Below, piece by piece: positions 5,777 to 59,866 of a DNA stretch of 64,000 nt. Location of the stretch: the IMG/VR virus record IMGVR_UViG_3300038441_001309, positions 62,001 to 126,000 of that record. One strand, written 5' to 3'. Position numbers and translations under genes: made by a program. Source of the DNA: a virus. The notes under the pieces were generated by a model that was not told where the DNA came from, searched no databases, and saw only the letters and a program-made list of their open reading frames with translations. Within the stretch, counting starts at the first letter, position 1; each line of letters opens with the position of its first letter.

Positions 5777-7075
5777 TTAGCTGAAGTAACCCAGACGAGT
5801 GAAGTCGTTGTGGATGATTTCACAGAGTTGGTCAACCAGGTAGATCACGCGGTTGGCCGACGGGCGCCGGTTACTACGACGTGCTGCGATCTCACCGCCT
5901 TCGCGGAAGAACTCTTCCTCGGAACTAGGCTCCCCGGTATAGTTTTCGCCGTGAAGGCTGACGGTGTAGTTGTTGCTGGTATTGCGGTTGGCGTACTTGG
6001 AGGCACGCAGTTTGAGAATGGGGATCAGATCCACATCAACGTTATCGTCCAGGTAGTTCATAGTCGCCAAGTGGCCTGGACTGACTGGTACCCCGCGCCA
6101 CTTCTGGGACTTGTAACGCGAGGTGTCTGCGTTGGTCAGTTCCATGTAAAGGATCGGCGCTAGGCCTTCGATCATCAAGTTGACCCGTTGGCGTTCAATG
6201 AAATTGATGAACCCATTGATCTGCATGATCAGGTCAGCGTATGGGGACTCGGCTTCACGGTCGTGAACGGGGAAGCCTGCCGACAGTGCACCTGCCATGA
6301 GCAGATCAATTGACTCTGGGGTCTTGATGCGGATAGCCCGATCAACGGAGCCCTTGCGGTCAGTGTGACCCCAACCAACAACCATGTCTTCCCAATGCCG
6401 AGCTTGGTCGACGGTGAGGCTGTGGAGATAACAGAAAGCCTCGAAGACGGCAGTGTCGCCGTTCATGAGGTTCTCTACTGCATTGGAGTTGTGGTCATCA
6501 TCACGCGGGTGACAACCGGCCTCCTGCAGTGTCTTTTGCAAACCAGTCCAGGTGGGGAAGTGTTCCTTCCACACCAGCATGTAAGTGTAGTCGGAGTTGG
6601 TGGAGAAGTAGCCACCCCACACCACCGAATCCAGCAGCTTAGGCAATTCCATCATGGCCTTACGAACACTGTCACCGCGAACGCGTCCCAGATCGCAGTC
6701 GAGGTAAGGACGGAACATGCCGTTCAGGTGGTAGAGATCGGCCAACACTGGGATGTTGTCACCCACTGCGTCCCAATTGATCTCCTGTTCGTGCTCCACG
6801 ATCTGCTCGGCCAGGACTTTGAGAACGGACATGTTGAACAATCCGGTGGTCAGGCGCAGGATCTGTTGCAGGCCCAGCTGAGTGCGCGCCATGTCCAGTG
6901 TGTGAATGGCGACGTTGTCAATGTCCTTTTGATCGGACGTATCGATATCACTGGACAGGGCCAGTTCGATACCATTGTCAAGGTCTGGGTGGTCGTTGAG
7001 CTGTTGGCGATACAGCATCTGGAACAGGTACAGACCAGTGATGATGTTGGTTTGAAATGCTTCTGGACGATCCAT
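5777..7075 (-). CDS. Hypothetical protein, 432 aa
   Basis: 432 aa, largely helical and acidic, with two Cys in the middle (AGCHPRDDD, EAFCYLHS) and no membrane segment. Not recognised. Start at ATG 7075 with GGAGA 5 nt upstream, just after a hairpin and TTATGCC, so it probably has its own transcript start. The C-terminus (RRSNRRPSANRVIYLVDQL) is basic then hydrophobic. Confidence 0.8.
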   Translation of the reverse strand: MDRPEAFQTNIITGLYLFQMLYRQQLNDHPDLDNGIELALSSDIDTSDQKDIDNVAIHTLDMARTQLGLQQILRLTTGLFNMSVLKVLAEQIVEHEQEINWDAVGDNIPVLADLYHLNGMFRPYLDCDLGRVRGDSVRKAMMELPKLLDSVVWGGYFSTNSDYTYMLVWKEHFPTWTGLQKTLQEAGCHPRDDDHNSNAVENLMNGDTAVFEAFCYLHSLTVDQARHWEDMVVGWGHTDRKGSVDRAIRIKTPESIDLLMAGALSAGFPVHDREAESPYADLIMQINGFINFIERQRVNLMIEGLAPILYMELTNADTSRYKSQKWRGVPVSPGHLATMNYLDDNVDVDLIPILKLRASKYANRNTSNNYTVSLHGENYTGEPSSEEEFFREGGEIAARRSNRRPSANRVIYLVDQLCEIIHNDFTRLGYFS

Positions 7076-20695: not shown

Positions 20696-20732
20696 CATAG
20701 GCTCCCGCCCCTTGGAGGGGGCGGGAGTTATG
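20696..20732. terminator. Bidirectional hairpin with CATA/TATG flanks
   Basis: CTCCCGCCCC (20702-20711) pairs with GGGGGCGGGAG (20717-20727). CATA on the left and TTATGC on the right. Confidence 0.8.
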
Positions 20733-25246: not shown

Positions 25247-25280
25247 CATAAAGGCCAGGGGTCATCCCCCTGGCCGTATG
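25247..25280. terminator. Hairpin with CATA/TATG flanks
   Basis: GGCCAGGG/CCCTGGCC stem (25253-25275), CATA to the left (TTTATG on minus), GTATG to the right. Confidence 0.75.
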
Positions 25281-52376: not shown

Positions 52377-52404
52377 CATAAGGGTCAGCCCGAAGGCTGA
52401 CCCG
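52377..52404 (-). terminator. UUCG-capped hairpin with TTATGCC
   Basis: Minus strand GGGTCAGCC-TTCG-GGCTGACCC, then TTATGCC. Ends the structured stretch at 52405-52640. Confidence 0.8.
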
Positions 52405-54137: not shown

Positions 54138-54482
54138 TTAGTGGGTTTCGATGTGGGGGTTGGCCATCAGGTACGCACACGCGGTGTCGGGATCGATGAC
54201 ACGAGTAAACGAAAGGCCATTGCAAGCCAGGGTGACGCGATGGGTGTCACGCTCGTAAGCTGCATGGAACTCGGCAGCATCGAGCAGGTGAATAACCGCA
54301 TCGGCAGCGGGGTGATCTTCCTGGGTGAGCAGCATGGCGAGGTAGTACATCAGCCCCTCATGCTCTTTCTCTACGACAGGCCCGTTTTGACTGACATCTG
54401 CATGCCAGCTACGAGCCATACCCAGAAGACCAGTGGTGCAGGCATGACCATCTACGATCACGTTTTCAGTAGCTGATTCCAT
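54138..54482 (-). CDS. Hypothetical protein
   Basis: 114 aa. Contains DAVIHLLDAAEFHAAYERDTHRVTLACNG; not recognised. Start ATG 54482, preceded by a stem-loop that shows TAAGGA in its loop (54489-54502). Confidence 0.75.
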   Translation of the reverse strand: MESATENVIVDGHACTTGLLGMARSWHADVSQNGPVVEKEHEGLMYYLAMLLTQEDHPAADAVIHLLDAAEFHAAYERDTHRVTLACNGLSFTRVIDPDTACAYLMANPHIETH

Positions 54483-54488
54483 TTCTTC

Positions 54489-54502
54489 GTCCTCCTTAGG
54501 AC
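54489..54502 (-). promoter_or_regulatory. Shine-Dalgarno displayed in a stem-loop
   Basis: Minus strand GTCC-TAAGGA-GGAC: 4-bp stem, 6-nt loop carrying the ribosome site, 6 nt before the ATG. Confidence 0.5.
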
Positions 54503-54526
54503 ATGGGAATATGGTCGCCTTAAGAT

Positions 54527-54883
54527 TTAGGCGACTTGTGCTTCTTCACGGCCACAGAGATTGGCCAGGACCTTCAGCTTGCGGCGCACCCATGCATCGG
54601 GTGGCGCTTGCTTGCCGAGGCGTTCCGCTGCTTGCTTGCGCTCGCGCTCTGTGCGGAAGAGGTAGGGTAGTGGGTAGAACATGAGTTTGTCCTCCCCATT
54701 CGGCCCGTGGAGCGTGTGAGATACCAGCAGCGGCCCCACCAAGTCCGCGTACTTCGAACCGTAGTCCAGCACGTACTTGAGCTTGGCCAGCCACTTCGGA
54801 TCATCATCCACAGGGATGTGACGCATAGTGGCTTTGGGATCGTCGTTCTTGATGAAAACAATTGCTTGGCTTGGGTTTACCAT
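54527..54883 (-). CDS. Hypothetical protein
   Basis: 118 aa. Basic C-terminal helices (RTERERKQAAERLGKQ, WVRRKLKVLANLCG). Not recognised. Start ATG 54883 after GGAGG, 1 nt after the stop of the small membrane protein gene. Confidence 0.75.
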   Translation of the reverse strand: MVNPSQAIVFIKNDDPKATMRHIPVDDDPKWLAKLKYVLDYGSKYADLVGPLLVSHTLHGPNGEDKLMFYPLPYLFRTERERKQAAERLGKQAPPDAWVRRKLKVLANLCGREEAQVA

Positions 54884-54884
54884 G

Positions 54885-55052
54885 TCAACCTCCGGTCTCA
54901 TGGATGTTTACTTTGAACAGTAGCTGGGATACTACACCAGCTACGATGGTAACTACAGACGCAGCGATCAGGATGAGGATCGTGCGCGGGCCACCGAGCA
55001 TGAGCACAGTGGCGAAGAAGATCAGGCTTGCCTTAGACAATAAGAATCGCAT
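54885..55052 (-). CDS. 55-aa membrane protein
   Basis: 55 aa: MRFLLSKASLIFFATVLM, then a second hydrophobic stretch (ILILIAASVVTIVAGVVS), so probably two membrane helices with a Gly-Pro-Arg turn between. GGAGG lies 6 nt before ATG 55052, and the TGA is 1 nt before the next start. The coding frame and coupling make it credible despite its size. Function unknown; small phage membrane proteins often interfere with superinfection or the envelope. Confidence 0.7.
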   Translation of the reverse strand: MRFLLSKASLIFFATVLMLGGPRTILILIAASVVTIVAGVVSQLLFKVNIHETGG

Positions 55053-55066
55053 TGTAGCCTCCATGG

Positions 55067-55450
55067 CTATCCAGCTGTTAAAGGCGCCTGTGCAAGTTTC
55101 TGCAGGGTGTGCCCGACATTGTCATTGCCCCAAAGACCCAGTAGACATTCCAACTGGTCTTCAGGAACATTCCCTTTGCCCCACAGTCTTTCGAGCATGG
55201 GGGTGGTACGCAGGATAACCGTGCGTGCTGAGCGATCAACCTCTTCCAGTAAGACATTGCCGAATGGCGTCACGATGACGATCATGCGGCTACCCGATGG
55301 GGCGAGTGTGTAGATCACGTCGCCCGATTGAGTGTGTTCGATCTGGTCATTGATCAAGCCTTTCCAGCCCCCCGTTGGAGTGAACCAGTGATCCTGGTGT
55401 TCCATTTTGCGGGTGGAAGACAGGCTAATCATTACGTCAAACAGATCCAT
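55067..55450 (-). CDS. Hypothetical protein
   Basis: 127 aa, beta-rich (SRMIVIVTPFGNVLLEEVD). Not recognised. Start ATG 55450 after AGGAG; the frame to 55501 would overlap the upstream gene. Confidence 0.75.
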   Translation of the reverse strand: MDLFDVMISLSSTRKMEHQDHWFTPTGGWKGLINDQIEHTQSGDVIYTLAPSGSRMIVIVTPFGNVLLEEVDRSARTVILRTTPMLERLWGKGNVPEDQLECLLGLWGNDNVGHTLQKLAQAPLTAG

Positions 55451-55472
55451 GGTATTTCTCCTGCGGGTATGG

Positions 55473-55658
55473 TTAGAAGGCGACGACTTGAGCACGAGCA
55501 CCGGCGTAGGTGATCATCGACTGACCCATGGGGGTAATACGATGACCAGTAGCCACTTCCTCTTGTGCTTGTGCTTTAGGCTCCTGCATCAGCGAGGAGT
55601 TCAAAACAACAGTCATGCCAACAACAATACCGAAAGCCAGGATAGCAAAATTCTTCAC
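55473..55658 (-). CDS. 61-aa exported protein
   Basis: 61 aa beginning MKNFAILAFGIVVGMTVVL, a signal peptide or anchor, then Gln/Glu-rich and Ala-rich residues. No lipobox Cys. GTG start 55658, with the stem-loop-borne Shine-Dalgarno at 55664-55677. Confidence 0.7.
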   Translation of the reverse strand: MKNFAILAFGIVVGMTVVLNSSLMQEPKAQAQEEVATGHRITPMGQSMITYAGARAQVVAF

Positions 55659-55663
55659 AGCGT

Positions 55664-55677
55664 GTCCTCCTTAGGAC
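55664..55677 (-). promoter_or_regulatory. Shine-Dalgarno displayed in a stem-loop
   Basis: Minus strand GTCC-TAAGGA-GGAC, same form as at 54489, 5 nt before the GTG. Confidence 0.5.
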
Positions 55678-55687
55678 GTGGGTATAA

Positions 55688-56443
55688 TTAACGATTGAAC
55701 AGCGATTTGAAGAAACGACCTACGCGGCTTTCTGCCACGCGTTCCATGAGGACTTCGCAACGGTAACCCATGCGGGCCCAGAAGCTGACCTTGCGAGGTA
55801 CATAGCCAGGCATCCGAATCTTGGTGTGGAAGTATTCGGAATCCTTCAACGGAGCCTTGTTCATGATCAAGGCCTTTGTCGCACTGATCGACTCTTGGTT
55901 GGCGTGAGCCCCAATGGTTGCCAACGCCTCCGGGCTGAGCGTGAGTGCCTCCAGCGGGTAGTTGGAGTTGTACTCGGTCTCACCGTGCATGCGTGCTGGG
56001 CTAATGCGACCCATCCCCGTTTGGGAGTGCTTGGGTTGGCTGGCGTAAGCAGGGTCAGTGATACGACGGCCACCCGTTAGTGGGGTGACTGGCCCACGAC
56101 GACGCTCTACCGAAGCACGGCGCATGCCTTCGAGCAGCTCTGTGCTACCCACCATGATGTCCAGCATGCCGACGTATTCGGACGACTGGTCCAACTTGAC
56201 GCCAACCACAGACCGGACGATGTCGCCATTCGGATTGAGAATGAGCGGCCGCATGTCCATGTCGATGCCTGGGTTGGTAACAGGACAGATGTACTCTGCC
56301 CCGCGATGACGAATGACGCTCACCCGTTTACAGACGGTGGTCTCGCCATCCATGTAAGTCCCCGTGCGCATTTGCAACAGCAACAGAATGTTGCGGTTCT
56401 CTGGCGTCATGGATTCAATCATTGCGCGTTTTGCTTTGGACAT
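55688..56443 (-). CDS. Hypothetical protein
   Basis: 251 aa. Basic N-terminus, a beta-rich middle (VCKRVSVIRHRGAEYICP), Arg-rich linker (ASVERRRGPVTPLTGGRR) and a basic amphipathic end (VGRFFKSLFNR) that could touch membrane. Not recognised. Confidence 0.75.
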   Translation of the reverse strand: MSKAKRAMIESMTPENRNILLLLQMRTGTYMDGETTVCKRVSVIRHRGAEYICPVTNPGIDMDMRPLILNPNGDIVRSVVGVKLDQSSEYVGMLDIMVGSTELLEGMRRASVERRRGPVTPLTGGRRITDPAYASQPKHSQTGMGRISPARMHGETEYNSNYPLEALTLSPEALATIGAHANQESISATKALIMNKAPLKDSEYFHTKIRMPGYVPRKVSFWARMGYRCEVLMERVAESRVGRFFKSLFNR

Positions 56444-56445
56444 CT

Positions 56446-56461
56446 GATCCTCCTTAGGATC
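56446..56461 (-). promoter_or_regulatory. Shine-Dalgarno stem-loop, covarying form
   Basis: Minus strand GATCC-TAAGGA-GGATC: 5-bp stem differing from the GTCC/GGAC version on both sides. The TAA in the loop is also the stop codon of the upstream gene. Confidence 0.55.
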
Positions 56462-56813
56462 TGGGAATTACTAGCTTTTTGGATAATTCATAAAGCCAAT
56501 GGATTTCAATAATCCCGTATGGCCTGAATGGTTGTGGAAACTCCAGCTGATAAAGGCGTTCCTGCTCAAGGAACGCCTCCTCAACAGATACGTCGGCACC
56601 GGTTGGCAATCGCTCAACCAATGCATACATCTCCATGGACTTGATCTGGGTCCTGGCTACGCAGGTCCGATGCTTGGCACGCCACACTGCAACGAAGGCC
56701 TTGGCCAATCGAGCATTGTGTTCGAGATCGTCGTCGAGGCTGCGCAGTCTGAGCATTCCGGTTTGAATACCATCAAAGATGATGAACCGAGCTTCCTTTA
56801 CCTCGCGGTTCAT
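56454..56813 (-). CDS. Hypothetical protein
   Basis: 119 aa, helical, not recognised; contains FVAVWRAKHRTCVARTQI. ATGA overlap with the preceding gene; its stop lies inside the ribosome-site loop of the next gene. Confidence 0.75.
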   Translation of the reverse strand: MNREVKEARFIIFDGIQTGMLRLRSLDDDLEHNARLAKAFVAVWRAKHRTCVARTQIKSMEMYALVERLPTGADVSVEEAFLEQERLYQLEFPQPFRPYGIIEIHWLYELSKKLVIPRS

Positions 56814-57715
56814 TCGTCTTTGTCACTGATTGGGGTGACGAGGACGAGTCGATTAGTACGCAGTTCTGGGTTACGACCCAACTGCACTTTCTCCAACAGG
56901 CCGCTGGCATGGGTATCGGTTGGACGAGGTGGGTTGATGTCGAACATGCAGATGCCGTCGCTGTCTGGATACTCGAAGTCCACACCACCACGCGGATTAA
57001 CCGAAACCCCACCAGTCTCTTGCAGCCATTGGTCACGAGTCTCGTAGGGGTAGTAGCCGGCATTGCGGGTCAGGTACTCCTTGACCACCTTGGCATCGCG
57101 AGCCTTCCCCTCTGGAGTGCCATCCAGCTCCAGCTTGATCTCACCACGGGCCAGTGCCAGCATCAGGCGATTGGTAACCTTGTCTTCGAAGGTCGGCGCA
57201 GGCTTCTGCATCTCTGGCATCCGACGGACGTTATCCAGATTCAGTAGAGGCTCTTCTTCCGCCCTTTGCAGGAGTTCCCCCGTCACGTAGGAATGCTGGA
57301 CAGGCTTGGCGAATATATCCGCATTCAGTTCGCTGACATCCCATGGGAGGCCAGTCGGGTTGAGCACCTGCAGCACCTGGCCCAGGAGCTTGTCGTAATC
57401 ACCGCCAGATAGTGCGCGAGTATCGAAGTTCTCACTGATGTAAGCCTTGGCCTCGGTGACCTGCTTTTCGTTGTACCGCTTAGGTACTTGGTTGAGCACC
57501 TCTTCGGGGAAAGGTTTGTAGTCCGCTGGCGGGGTGTGCATGTTCAGCGGTACGCCTCCCTTAAGCTCGATGACACGCGGAGCCCTACGCAGTTCAAGCA
57601 CCTGCTTAACTGCCTTGGCGAAGCCCTCTTCGCTCATGGGACCGCATTCATTGCGAACCCAGGCTTTGGCCGACTCGATGTCTTGTGGTTCGAATTGCTT
57701 TTCCAGATCTTTCAT
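56810..57715 (-). CDS. Hypothetical protein, 301 aa
   Basis: 301 aa. Two similar helical blocks at the start (FEPQDIESAKAWVRNECG and EKQVTEAKAYISENFDT, each followed by a Leu-rich VKQVLEL/LGQVLQVL) suggest an internal duplication. The rest is Pro-rich and unrecognised. Preceded by a stem-loop ribosome site. Confidence 0.75.
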   Translation of the reverse strand: MKDLEKQFEPQDIESAKAWVRNECGPMSEEGFAKAVKQVLELRRAPRVIELKGGVPLNMHTPPADYKPFPEEVLNQVPKRYNEKQVTEAKAYISENFDTRALSGGDYDKLLGQVLQVLNPTGLPWDVSELNADIFAKPVQHSYVTGELLQRAEEEPLLNLDNVRRMPEMQKPAPTFEDKVTNRLMLALARGEIKLELDGTPEGKARDAKVVKEYLTRNAGYYPYETRDQWLQETGGVSVNPRGGVDFEYPDSDGICMFDINPPRPTDTHASGLLEKVQLGRNPELRTNRLVLVTPISDKDE

Positions 57716-57717
57716 AA

Positions 57718-57731
57718 GTCCTCCCTAGGAC
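57718..57731 (-). promoter_or_regulatory. Shine-Dalgarno displayed in a stem-loop
   Basis: Minus strand GTCC-TAGGGA-GGAC; loop differs by one base from the other copies. Confidence 0.5.
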
Positions 57732-57770
57732 GTGGGTATCAAACTTTTATACACACTCCCCATGAATGTG

Positions 57771-57798
57771 CATAAGAGTGGGCCCTCGTTAGAAGGCC
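57771..57798 (-). terminator. Hairpin followed by TTATGC (minus)
   Basis: GGGCC (57780-57784) with GGCCC (57794-57798); on the minus strand CTCTTATGCAC follows. Confidence 0.55.
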
Positions 57799-57805
57799 CT
57801 GGGTG

Positions 57806-58315
57806 TTACGCGGCTGCCGCTGGTGCAGTGCCGGCTGGAGCAGTCTGGTTCACTGCAGCTTCAGCCGCAGTAGAGACCGCTGCCGCTGCCTCGTCTTTCG
57901 GTACCAACACCACCGGCGGCTCGTAGATTGGAGGTTCGGTGCGCACAGCTTCGTTGACCTTGTCCTGAGTGGTCATGAACATGGCCAGGTGACCATTACC
58001 TTCGGTGACCACCGACTCGAACCACTGGTGGCCAATCGATTTGGCCTTGCCGACAGCTTTCATGGTCACCACCAGCTTGCCTTCACGCAGAACGATTGGA
58101 GTCAGCTCGAACTCCATGTCGTTGAAGCATGGCACCACATACTGCTCGGCGCTGTCGACAAACAGCAGGCCGACGCCCAGCAGCTGATGCTTCTTGTTGG
58201 AGGCACCTTCGCGCTCGATACGAGCCTGATAGTCGCAGGCCTGCAGGGCTTCCAGAACCGCATCTACGTTGTGGTTCCAGTTGTTGTGGTTGTTGCCGAA
58301 GATTGCGTTCATCAT
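57806..58315 (-). CDS. Hypothetical protein with Ala/Pro-rich tail
   Basis: 169 aa. Begins with an Asn/His-rich stretch (FGNNHNNWNHN), then a beta-rich core, then Pro/Glu and Ala-rich tail (APAGTAPAAAA). Not recognised. AGGAG upstream of ATG 58315 (ATG 58312 also possible). Confidence 0.75.
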   Translation of the reverse strand: MMNAIFGNNHNNWNHNVDAVLEALQACDYQARIEREGASNKKHQLLGVGLLFVDSAEQYVVPCFNDMEFELTPIVLREGKLVVTMKAVGKAKSIGHQWFESVVTEGNGHLAMFMTTQDKVNEAVRTEPPIYEPPVVLVPKDEAAAAVSTAAEAAVNQTAPAGTAPAAAA

Positions 58316-58333
58316 GATGTATCTCCTAATGCG

Positions 58334-58374
58334 GGCATAAGTTGGAGCCCCCTCATGGAGGCCCCGGAGGAAAG
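58334..58374 (-). terminator. GC hairpin with TTATGCC (minus)
   Basis: GGGGCCTCC...GGGGGCTCC can fold with a small loop on the minus strand, followed by AACTTATGCCCGC and then the next gene. Confidence 0.5.
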
Positions 58375-58379
58375 GTGGA

Positions 58380-58796
58380 TTAAGCGGTAGTGCCTTCGCG
58401 CCAGTGAACCATCTGTGCTTCACGGATACGTTTGATCAGCACAACAGACAGACACAGGCCAGTGAAGAACGCGAACCACCAGCCAAGCAGCGCCAGCGAG
58501 AACAGTGCCGAGATGTTCATCAGGCACATGAAAGCACGAATCCGATAAGCGTGCTTATGAGCCCACAGGGATTTGTGCAGGTCGTGTAGATACTTGCGCA
58601 GCTCCATCGGATTCTTGCGCATCCGCCACTCGGTATACACGATCATTACAATGCTCATCAGGCAGAGGATGTTTGTTGCCGATTGACCGACCCACTTGTA
58701 GATGCCCAGAGTCACCCAGACGCAGCCAACTGCCAGCAGGGCAATTGCAGTGAAGCCGACGATCAGTTCTTTAGTATCGAAATCTTTCATAGCCAT
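58380..58796 (-). CDS. Polytopic membrane protein
   Basis: 138 aa with about four membrane helices (near res. 11-33, 40-55, 87-105 and 106-122), a basic central loop (WRMRKNPMELRKYLHDLHK) and a charged end. Function unknown. Preceded by a small stem-loop holding its ribosome site (58803-58815). Confidence 0.75.
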   Translation of the reverse strand: MAMKDFDTKELIVGFTAIALLAVGCVWVTLGIYKWVGQSATNILCLMSIVMIVYTEWRMRKNPMELRKYLHDLHKSLWAHKHAYRIRAFMCLMNISALFSLALLGWWFAFFTGLCLSVVLIKRIREAQMVHWREGTTA

Positions 58797-58802
58797 TGCA
58801 GT

Positions 58803-58815
58803 GTTCTCCTAGAAC
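58803..58815 (-). promoter_or_regulatory. Shine-Dalgarno stem-loop, covarying form
   Basis: Minus strand GTTC-TAGGA-GAAC: the stem differs from GTCC/GGAC on both sides and stays paired. Confidence 0.5.
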
Positions 58816-58865
58816 TTGAAATTGACCTAGCCCACCACCATTGGCAGGCTAGGGTGTTGCGGGTA

Positions 58866-59777
58866 TTACTTCATCCATTCCATGTCGGAAAGGATTTCAA
58901 CGGTAGGCTTCCAGCTGAGGCCAACGTCGGTGAACTGTTTGTCAGTCCACTCGGCTTTGCCGACCGAGTACGGGAAGTTGTTATCGTACCGGTAGACCCG
59001 GCAACGGAAACCGTTATCCTCGTACTTGCACCACTCGATCTTCCCCAGCAGCCAGGCGTTCAGGGCATCCCGATCCGGGAACTCGGTAGTGGAGTCCTCT
59101 TGATCCCAGCCGCATGGCCAGGTCTTCTGAGCAAACACCACCTTGTACGAGCCGTCCTTCGGTGGCTCGGGAGCCTTGGCTAAGGCCACCGCAGCTGGGG
59201 CGATCAGCACAGGCTCATCCGCAGGGACGAGAACCTTCTCCTCCTCACCGAACTCCCAGTCGGTGTCGCACTGGGCCATCGGTACCAGAGTAGCCGAGTA
59301 CATGAGGAACTTCATATCCTCATCGGCCTGCAGGTCCTTCAAAGCTTCCTGCACCTCTTTGGCGGACAGGTCGCTCTTACGCAGAACCCGAGCCATGGCC
59401 AGCATGCCATCGATCAACCCGATGCTGATGCCGTCTGGTTTGCGGCAATCGGATTTGCTGATGGTTGAGATAGCCAGGTCATCCAGCTCATCCCGCTGCT
59501 TCACCAGGTCTTGGACCTCCACCAGCGTATCGATCTTGATGTGGGCCAGATCGAACACGATAAAGTCCATGCCCTCCTGAGTGGCCTTGGTGCCCACCAG
59601 CTCGTACTCACGGTTGGCGGCGTCGCCAACCAACGCCTGCCACCTGCCATTGGCATCAGTGCGGACGCCGTACACGAACCCATCCTTACGACCAGCGTAA
59701 AGGAAGTTGCGACCCTCATGGCTGAACATCAGGGCGCCTTCAACGGATTCAGTGAAAGTGAGGTTAGCTTCTTGCAT
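58866..59777 (-). CDS. Hypothetical protein, 303 aa
   Basis: 303 aa. N-terminal 60 residues are beta-rich (GRNFLYAGRKDGFVYGVRT), then a helical middle, a Pro/Ala linker (VALAKAPEPPKDG) and a C-terminal domain with several Trp and two Cys. Not recognised. First gene of the minus unit, with a stem-loop ribosome site and an upstream promoter candidate. Confidence 0.8.
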   Translation of the reverse strand: MQEANLTFTESVEGALMFSHEGRNFLYAGRKDGFVYGVRTDANGRWQALVGDAANREYELVGTKATQEGMDFIVFDLAHIKIDTLVEVQDLVKQRDELDDLAISTISKSDCRKPDGISIGLIDGMLAMARVLRKSDLSAKEVQEALKDLQADEDMKFLMYSATLVPMAQCDTDWEFGEEEKVLVPADEPVLIAPAAVALAKAPEPPKDGSYKVVFAQKTWPCGWDQEDSTTEFPDRDALNAWLLGKIEWCKYEDNGFRCRVYRYDNNFPYSVGKAEWTDKQFTDVGLSWKPTVEILSDMEWMK

Positions 59778-59781
59778 GATT

Positions 59782-59797
59782 AGTCCTCCTTAGGACT
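59782..59797 (-). promoter_or_regulatory. Shine-Dalgarno stem-loop, 5-bp form
   Basis: Minus strand AGTCC-TAAGGA-GGACT, 4 nt before the ATG. Confidence 0.5.
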
Positions 59798-59843
59798 TGG
59801 GAAAATAATGAAATGACAAAGATTATTCTCGTCATTCAAGTAG

Positions 59844-59866
59844 GTATTATAGGTCTGAGATTTGGT
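59844..59866 (-). promoter_or_regulatory. Candidate phage promoter element
   Basis: Minus strand AACCAAATCTCAGACCTATAAT, nearly the same as at 31617; 67 nt upstream of the gene at 59777, in the divergent gap. Confidence 0.45.

Follow-up and report, generated by a model that had tools for sequence, protein, structure and literature searches.

Six genes on the minus strand of a viral DNA fragment each start just after a small hairpin whose loop displays the Shine-Dalgarno (SD) sequence, and the question raised by this locus is whether such hairpins are a coincidence or a device and, if a device, of what kind. The stretch analysed (the window, 64,000 nucleotides) comprises bases 62001-126000 of the 140,672-base virus record IMGVR_UViG_3300038441_001309, hereafter phage A. 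Each of the six hairpins is a copy of a single cis-acting RNA element, found in a lineage of phiKZ-like jumbo phages, where it marks translation starts in some of the early-type operons. An earlier note on this DNA had described a hairpin of this kind before each of the six genes, with TAAGGA or a near variant as the loop, and had taken stems that differ and still pair as a sign of selection on structure. It proved accurate on all these points; what goes beyond it, as described below, is the conservation of CCCA on the 5' side, the occurrence of the element in further phages and the presence of early promoters.

An element family at translation starts

The six hairpins of the window, each with the element that contains it, are as follows.

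59782..59797, minus strand: hairpin AGTCC-TAAGGA-GGACT, before gene 59777 (27-nt element, 59781-59807)
58803..58815, minus strand: hairpin GTTC-TAGGA-GAAC with a 5-nt loop, before gene 58796 (element 58801-58826)
57718..57731, minus strand: hairpin GTCC-TAGGGA-GGAC, before gene 57715 (element 57716-57742)
56446..56461, minus strand: hairpin GATCC-TAAGGA-GGATC, before gene 56443 (element 56445-56471)
55664..55677, minus strand: hairpin GTCC-TAAGGA-GGAC, before gene 55658 (element 55662-55688)
54489..54502, minus strand: hairpin GTCC-TAAGGA-GGAC, before gene 54482 (element 54487-54513)

The loop is thus TAAGGA in four copies, TAGGGA before 57715 and TAGGA before 58796. The last of these is the most diverged copy in the window and is without CCCA, with an E-value of 0.064 under a covariance model of phages A-C and of 0.005 under a four-phage model. 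As had been noticed earlier, the TAA of one loop, that before 56443 (56456-56454), doubles as the stop codon of the upstream open reading frame (56454-56813); this overlap is regarded as incidental because the small reading frame has no counterpart in relatives.

The record is a fragment of a phiKZ-like jumbo phage. The window encodes relatives of phiKZ-type virion proteins, and a protein like the β' subunit of the non-virion RNA polymerase, encoded elsewhere in the record, has 33-36% identity to its counterparts in named jumbo phages. The right-hand 14 kb of the window has no near DNA match among 50,697 phage records, and the hairpin-region proteins searched have no relatives among those records except for a short stretch in Elvirus EL and its kin. 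Three related IMG/VR jumbo phages were recovered by protein and DNA searches, and record A is collinear with phage B across 84-222 kb of the latter. Gene calls are those of a simple caller written for this analysis.

Phage B: IMGVR 3300011774_000001, 230,984 bases
Phage C: IMGVR 3300042923_000474, 231,724 bases
Phage E: IMGVR 3300046810_000338, 228,499 bases, reached via protein alignment and not via the motif

Across the four phages there are 37 copies of the element (6 in A, 11 in B and 10 each in C and E). It is about 27 nt long and has the form [AT]TNCCCA-N-(4-6 bp stem, loop UAAGGA, stem)-N2-7-AUG, the consensus for A-C being NNNATNCCCA-N-GTCC-TAAGGA-GGAC-A, where the start codon follows 5-9 nt past the G that closes the loop. 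The 5' part, [AT]TNCCCA with one variable base, is unpaired. Orthologues of all six window genes carry the element in both B and C, and these two phages have a second cluster outside the region covered by record A. In A-C, CCCA or ACCA stands at its fixed position in 26 of the 28 stem-bearing leaders but in 4 of the 96 showing nothing more than the loop motif; in phage E the 5' CCCA is weaker, and stem and loop are retained.

Searched against 604 kb, the A-C covariance model returned exactly the 27 A-C copies. The four-phage model, applied to 832 kb of these phages, gave only weak further matches, none of them convincing; a borderline extra copy in phage E (219595-219623, E-value 0.79) has the loop UAAGGC, without GGAG. 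The covariance model found no copy in EL, 201phi2-1, Noxifer, LucasX or FLC9, Rfam at its curated cut-offs gave no match in the window, and the strict element pattern was unmatched in bacterial genomes. Matches on the small contigs L019/L047, L013/L048 (near-perfect), L058 and L059 (GTTC form) were set aside as chance or convergent, the contigs being unrelated or, L047 excepted, without a demonstrated gene start. On L047, an unrelated 10.6-kb viral contig, a single near-perfect element (6713-6739) coincides with the start of a small gene for a hydrophobic, holin-like product, through chance or convergence.

Chance alone often yields a hairpin whose loop has some SD-like letters, as in about 11% of EL leaders, so that significance belongs to the element family and not to the presence of a hairpin as such. 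The exact core TCCTAAGGAGGA is found four times in the window and four times in the whole record, always within this cluster, compared with 0.02 in shuffles. Upstream of starts, a TAAGGA-type loop closed by a stem of at least 4 bp was counted in 7/159, 11/246 and 10/246 leaders of three phages; dinucleotide-shuffled leaders gave means of 0.020, 0.024 and 0.026, the largest value being 2. The full-record search and shuffled-leader comparison that the earlier note had proposed place the family far above shuffles. When 5' arms were swapped among leaders with the same loop, the mean was 3.3 and the largest value 10, against 28 observed.

The four stem pairs are formed in all 144 cells (36 distinct copies); the fourth is always CG, and the first three take the types GC/AU/GU/UA, UA/AU/UG and CG/UA. 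Double changes occur at three of the four pairs, 21 in total against 6.1 in shuffles, and the covariation score is 0.448 against 0.194; if the partner is slid by one column, pairing falls to 32-51%. Compensatory changes are seen between orthologues in the 58796 family (GTTC/GAAC, GATC/GATC, GTTC/GAAC), in the 56443 family (GATCC/GGATC versus GTCC/GGAC) and between B32606 and C90877 (GTCC/GGAC versus GTTC/GAAC). Because the copies are related within and between phages, the counts are not of independent events; the orthologue comparisons give at least three. Phage E has stems unseen in A-C (ATTC/GAAT and TTTC/GAAA), which provide a near-independent test because of the way in which that phage was reached, with the qualification that its rows were subsequently picked by the loop motif. 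Taken at the level of sequence, this pattern strongly supports selection on RNA structure. Two additional pairings were considered and rejected: CCCA with the start codon (CCAU/AUGG) is seen in single folds, but the second codon is not conserved, and for a pseudoknot between CCC and the GG of the loop the loops are too short.

Early promoters and operon context

Upstream of the first gene of the window cluster lies a sequence of a type familiar from EL.

59844..59854, minus strand: core ACCTATAATAC of an EL-type early promoter, located 77 nt upstream of the start of 59777, the first gene of the operon

This core matches annotations of a 'putative phage promoter' in EL (AAACCTANATTA), and its distance from 59777 places the first copy of the element within the RNA. 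The sequence RAACCTANATTA, an annotated phage promoter in EL, precedes every element operon in A-C, at 76-77 or about 219 nt upstream of its first gene. All 27 A-C copies lie in co-directional runs behind strict-form early promoters with ACCTANANTAC, runs that hold 54 of 654 genes (Fisher 3.5e-33, the run borders having been chosen after looking). The suggestion of a shared device is supported: there is one family, restricted to particular early-type operons. It is an early-regulon translation-initiation element, neither coincidence nor promoter, where 'early' is by promoter type, and it marks a subset of the probable early operons, with small, variable genes of unassigned function.

The strict promoter pattern seemed peculiar to element operons, but a relaxed one reveals more EL-type promoters, mostly ending in TTATC and not TACC, at the head of genes without the element, and the broader statement that all early genes carry it was withdrawn. 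The EL-type early promoters of these phages seem to fall into two subclasses, those ending in TACC heading element operons and those ending in TTATC/T heading element-free genes (B 31203, 34188 and 100589; C 89424, 92464 and 159770; window 59854, minus strand). Within operons, the element occurs at starts with a larger gap to the preceding gene (medians 51 versus 22 nt), as if these starts were ribosome entry points.

Candidate modes of action

The loop UAAGGA contains the core of a near-perfect SD, with the start codon a few bases downstream. The predicted SD:anti-SD duplex has a mean of -10.6 kcal/mol for element genes and -6.0 kcal/mol for other genes, and the predicted hairpin energy has a mean of -5.6 kcal/mol (range -7.9 to -2.0). 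Studies of the ribosome-binding site (RBS) indicate that a strong SD can generally cope with hairpins about as stable as these. A strong SD on a marginal hairpin is a design suited to efficient initiation unless the hairpin is held, and the 5' CCCA in A-C, for which ribosome binding does not account, suggests a dedicated reader. It is tempting to propose, as the leading explanation though at somewhat less than an even chance, that the element is a poised translational operator, in which a strong SD is displayed in the loop and a factor acting in trans controls the operons jointly, probably by shut-off. The ribosome would pair with the loop and open the marginal stem, so that translation of the element genes would be efficient early in infection. 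A factor acting in trans, most probably a product of the phage, would read the 5' CCCA, loop and hairpin and would either stabilise or cut the hairpin, and the takeover genes would be turned off together as infection moves on; that control is by repression rather than activation is our inference. Of the functions offered in the earlier note (switch, processing site or ribosome standby), a classic upstream standby site fits poorly, because the SD itself lies in the loop; a better fit would appear to be either SD-directed cleavage or an operator or switch.

Several observations weigh against such an operator. EL-type promoters also head genes without the element, about half of the genes in element operons lack it, and 'early' here means resemblance of promoters in four phages known from metagenomes only. 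The 5' CCCA is poorly kept in phage E and at A58796. Pfam models for CsrA, RegA, RegB and ParE/RelE match nothing in the phages searched, and ribosome binding by itself could produce some of the result. A possible, if doubtful, account has no dedicated factor: the hairpin would keep a strong SD single-stranded and shield the leader from nucleases and mispairing, allowing early mRNAs to outcompete those of the host. The far stronger SDs of element genes, the short and regular distance from element to start, and the larger upstream gaps, as expected of independent ribosome entry points, all agree with this; the fixed 5' CCCA in A-C is left unexplained, as is the limitation to a few operons when other, presumably well-translated genes do without the element.

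The nearest precedent is a shut-off by cleavage in T4, where RegB inactivates early mRNAs at the GGAG of the SD, preferring GGA unpaired and the fourth G constrained (PMC3014915). An endonuclease cutting GG^AG in the SD loop in this manner would find several such features here: the sites are SDs of early genes (by promoter type), every one of the 37 modelled copies has GGAG, GGA is in the loop while the fourth G forms part of the closing pair, and GGAG continues as R-A-Y in 25 of 27 element leaders, as opposed to 5 of the 222 other leaders with GGAG, a match that follows partly from the stem. Such cleavage is nevertheless unlikely: T4 sites have neither a covarying stem nor a 5' CCCA, the borderline copy in phage E lacks GGAG, no match to PF10715 was obtained at E<=1 in G000, G001 and G002 (though RegB relatives diverge strongly), and none to ParE/RelE (PF05016) in the phages searched. 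More improbable still is a binding site for host CsrA/RsmA. The AAGGA in a hexaloop overlapping the SD fits the general A-N-GGA design of such sites (PMC4894983), but in the high-affinity CANGGANG the loop begins with A and GGA is followed by a further base, whereas C-UAAGGA-G is off by one in register; CCCA is foreign to CsrA sites, the stem covaries throughout in a phage lineage, and the phages searched have no CsrA gene. That the conserved letters represent a promoter or operator palindrome in DNA ([AT]TNCCCA with an inverted repeat) and not an RNA structure is scarcely credible. Late promoters of phiKZ consist only of TATG (PMC7598289), so that the short TATNCCCA, which directly follows a hairpin at C90877 and B32606, could be a start site; but arms that co-vary around a fixed loop are not what recognition of DNA letters by a protein would favour, there is a separate early promoter 77 nt upstream of the first gene, and the coupling to SD and start codon is fixed.

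The hairpins that serve as operators for T4/RB69 gene 43 and for RNA-phage coat proteins are likewise small, lie at the RBS and may be stabilised by protein, but they are autoregulatory and exist in one or a few copies, whereas here about ten per genome precede unrelated genes. In RNA thermometers (fourU, ROSE) a hairpin also lies at the SD, which is however buried in the stem, while here the SD core UAAGGA forms the loop in most copies. The RegA site of T4 is unstructured and A+U-rich, unlike this structured site, and there was no match to PF01818. EL early operons have the same promoter type, and one early EL protein, ORF162, is similar to a portion of the 59777 protein, but the element itself is absent from EL.

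Phages that form a nucleus produce their early mRNAs inside a vesicle, from which these must be exported to reach host ribosomes (PMC12908238), and the element might therefore also act as an export or translation tag. We can entertain, as a conjecture with somewhat more against it than for it, that these jumbo phages separate transcription from translation and label a whole class of early mRNAs with the covarying SD-in-loop hairpin; a dedicated factor of the phage would read it, and a takeover regulon would be controlled after transcription through shut-off, selective translation or vesicle export. How mRNAs are selected for translation, and how early ones are later stopped, is an open question in nucleus-forming jumbo phages. 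A repeated, covarying element limited to particular early operons names a regulon, offers a bait for the binding factor, predicts the behaviour of compensatory mutants and supplies a sequence-only marker for probable takeover genes, which in these phages are nearly all without an assigned function.

Genes carrying the element and neighbouring features

The six genes of the window that begin behind the element are listed here.

58866..59777, minus strand: gene 59777, 303 amino acids, no Pfam family; a 58-residue stretch resembles Elvirus EL ORF162
58380..58796, minus strand: gene 58796, 138 amino acids, membrane-like
56810..57715, minus strand: gene 57715, 301 amino acids, no Pfam family over the cut-off
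55688..56443, minus strand: gene 56443, 251 amino acids, no Pfam family
55473..55658, minus strand: gene 55658, 61 amino acids, with a single N-terminal hydrophobic stretch
54138..54482, minus strand: gene 54482, 114 amino acids

Searches of Pfam and PHROGs gave no nameable regulator among the early proteins. The predicted structure of the 54482 family folds fairly well, yet has no convincing relative in the PDB, and the model for the 59777 family is poor.

A further conserved hairpin, TATGCACATTCATTGGGAGTGTGCATA, lies directly upstream of the 57715 element (window 57742-57775, minus strand; L012 7940-7972); it is present in A and B and less perfect in C. Elsewhere, intergenic TTATG directly follows a GC-rich hairpin of at least 6 bp in 14/43, 39/79, 33/73 and 43/87 cases in the four phages, compared with 6-10% for control pentamers. 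These sites occur in both tandem and convergent gaps, for example at 52381-52403 (minus strand), 20702-20728 (plus strand) and 25252-25275 (minus strand) of the window, and given the TATG of phiKZ late promoters, terminator and late promoter may be fused at them.
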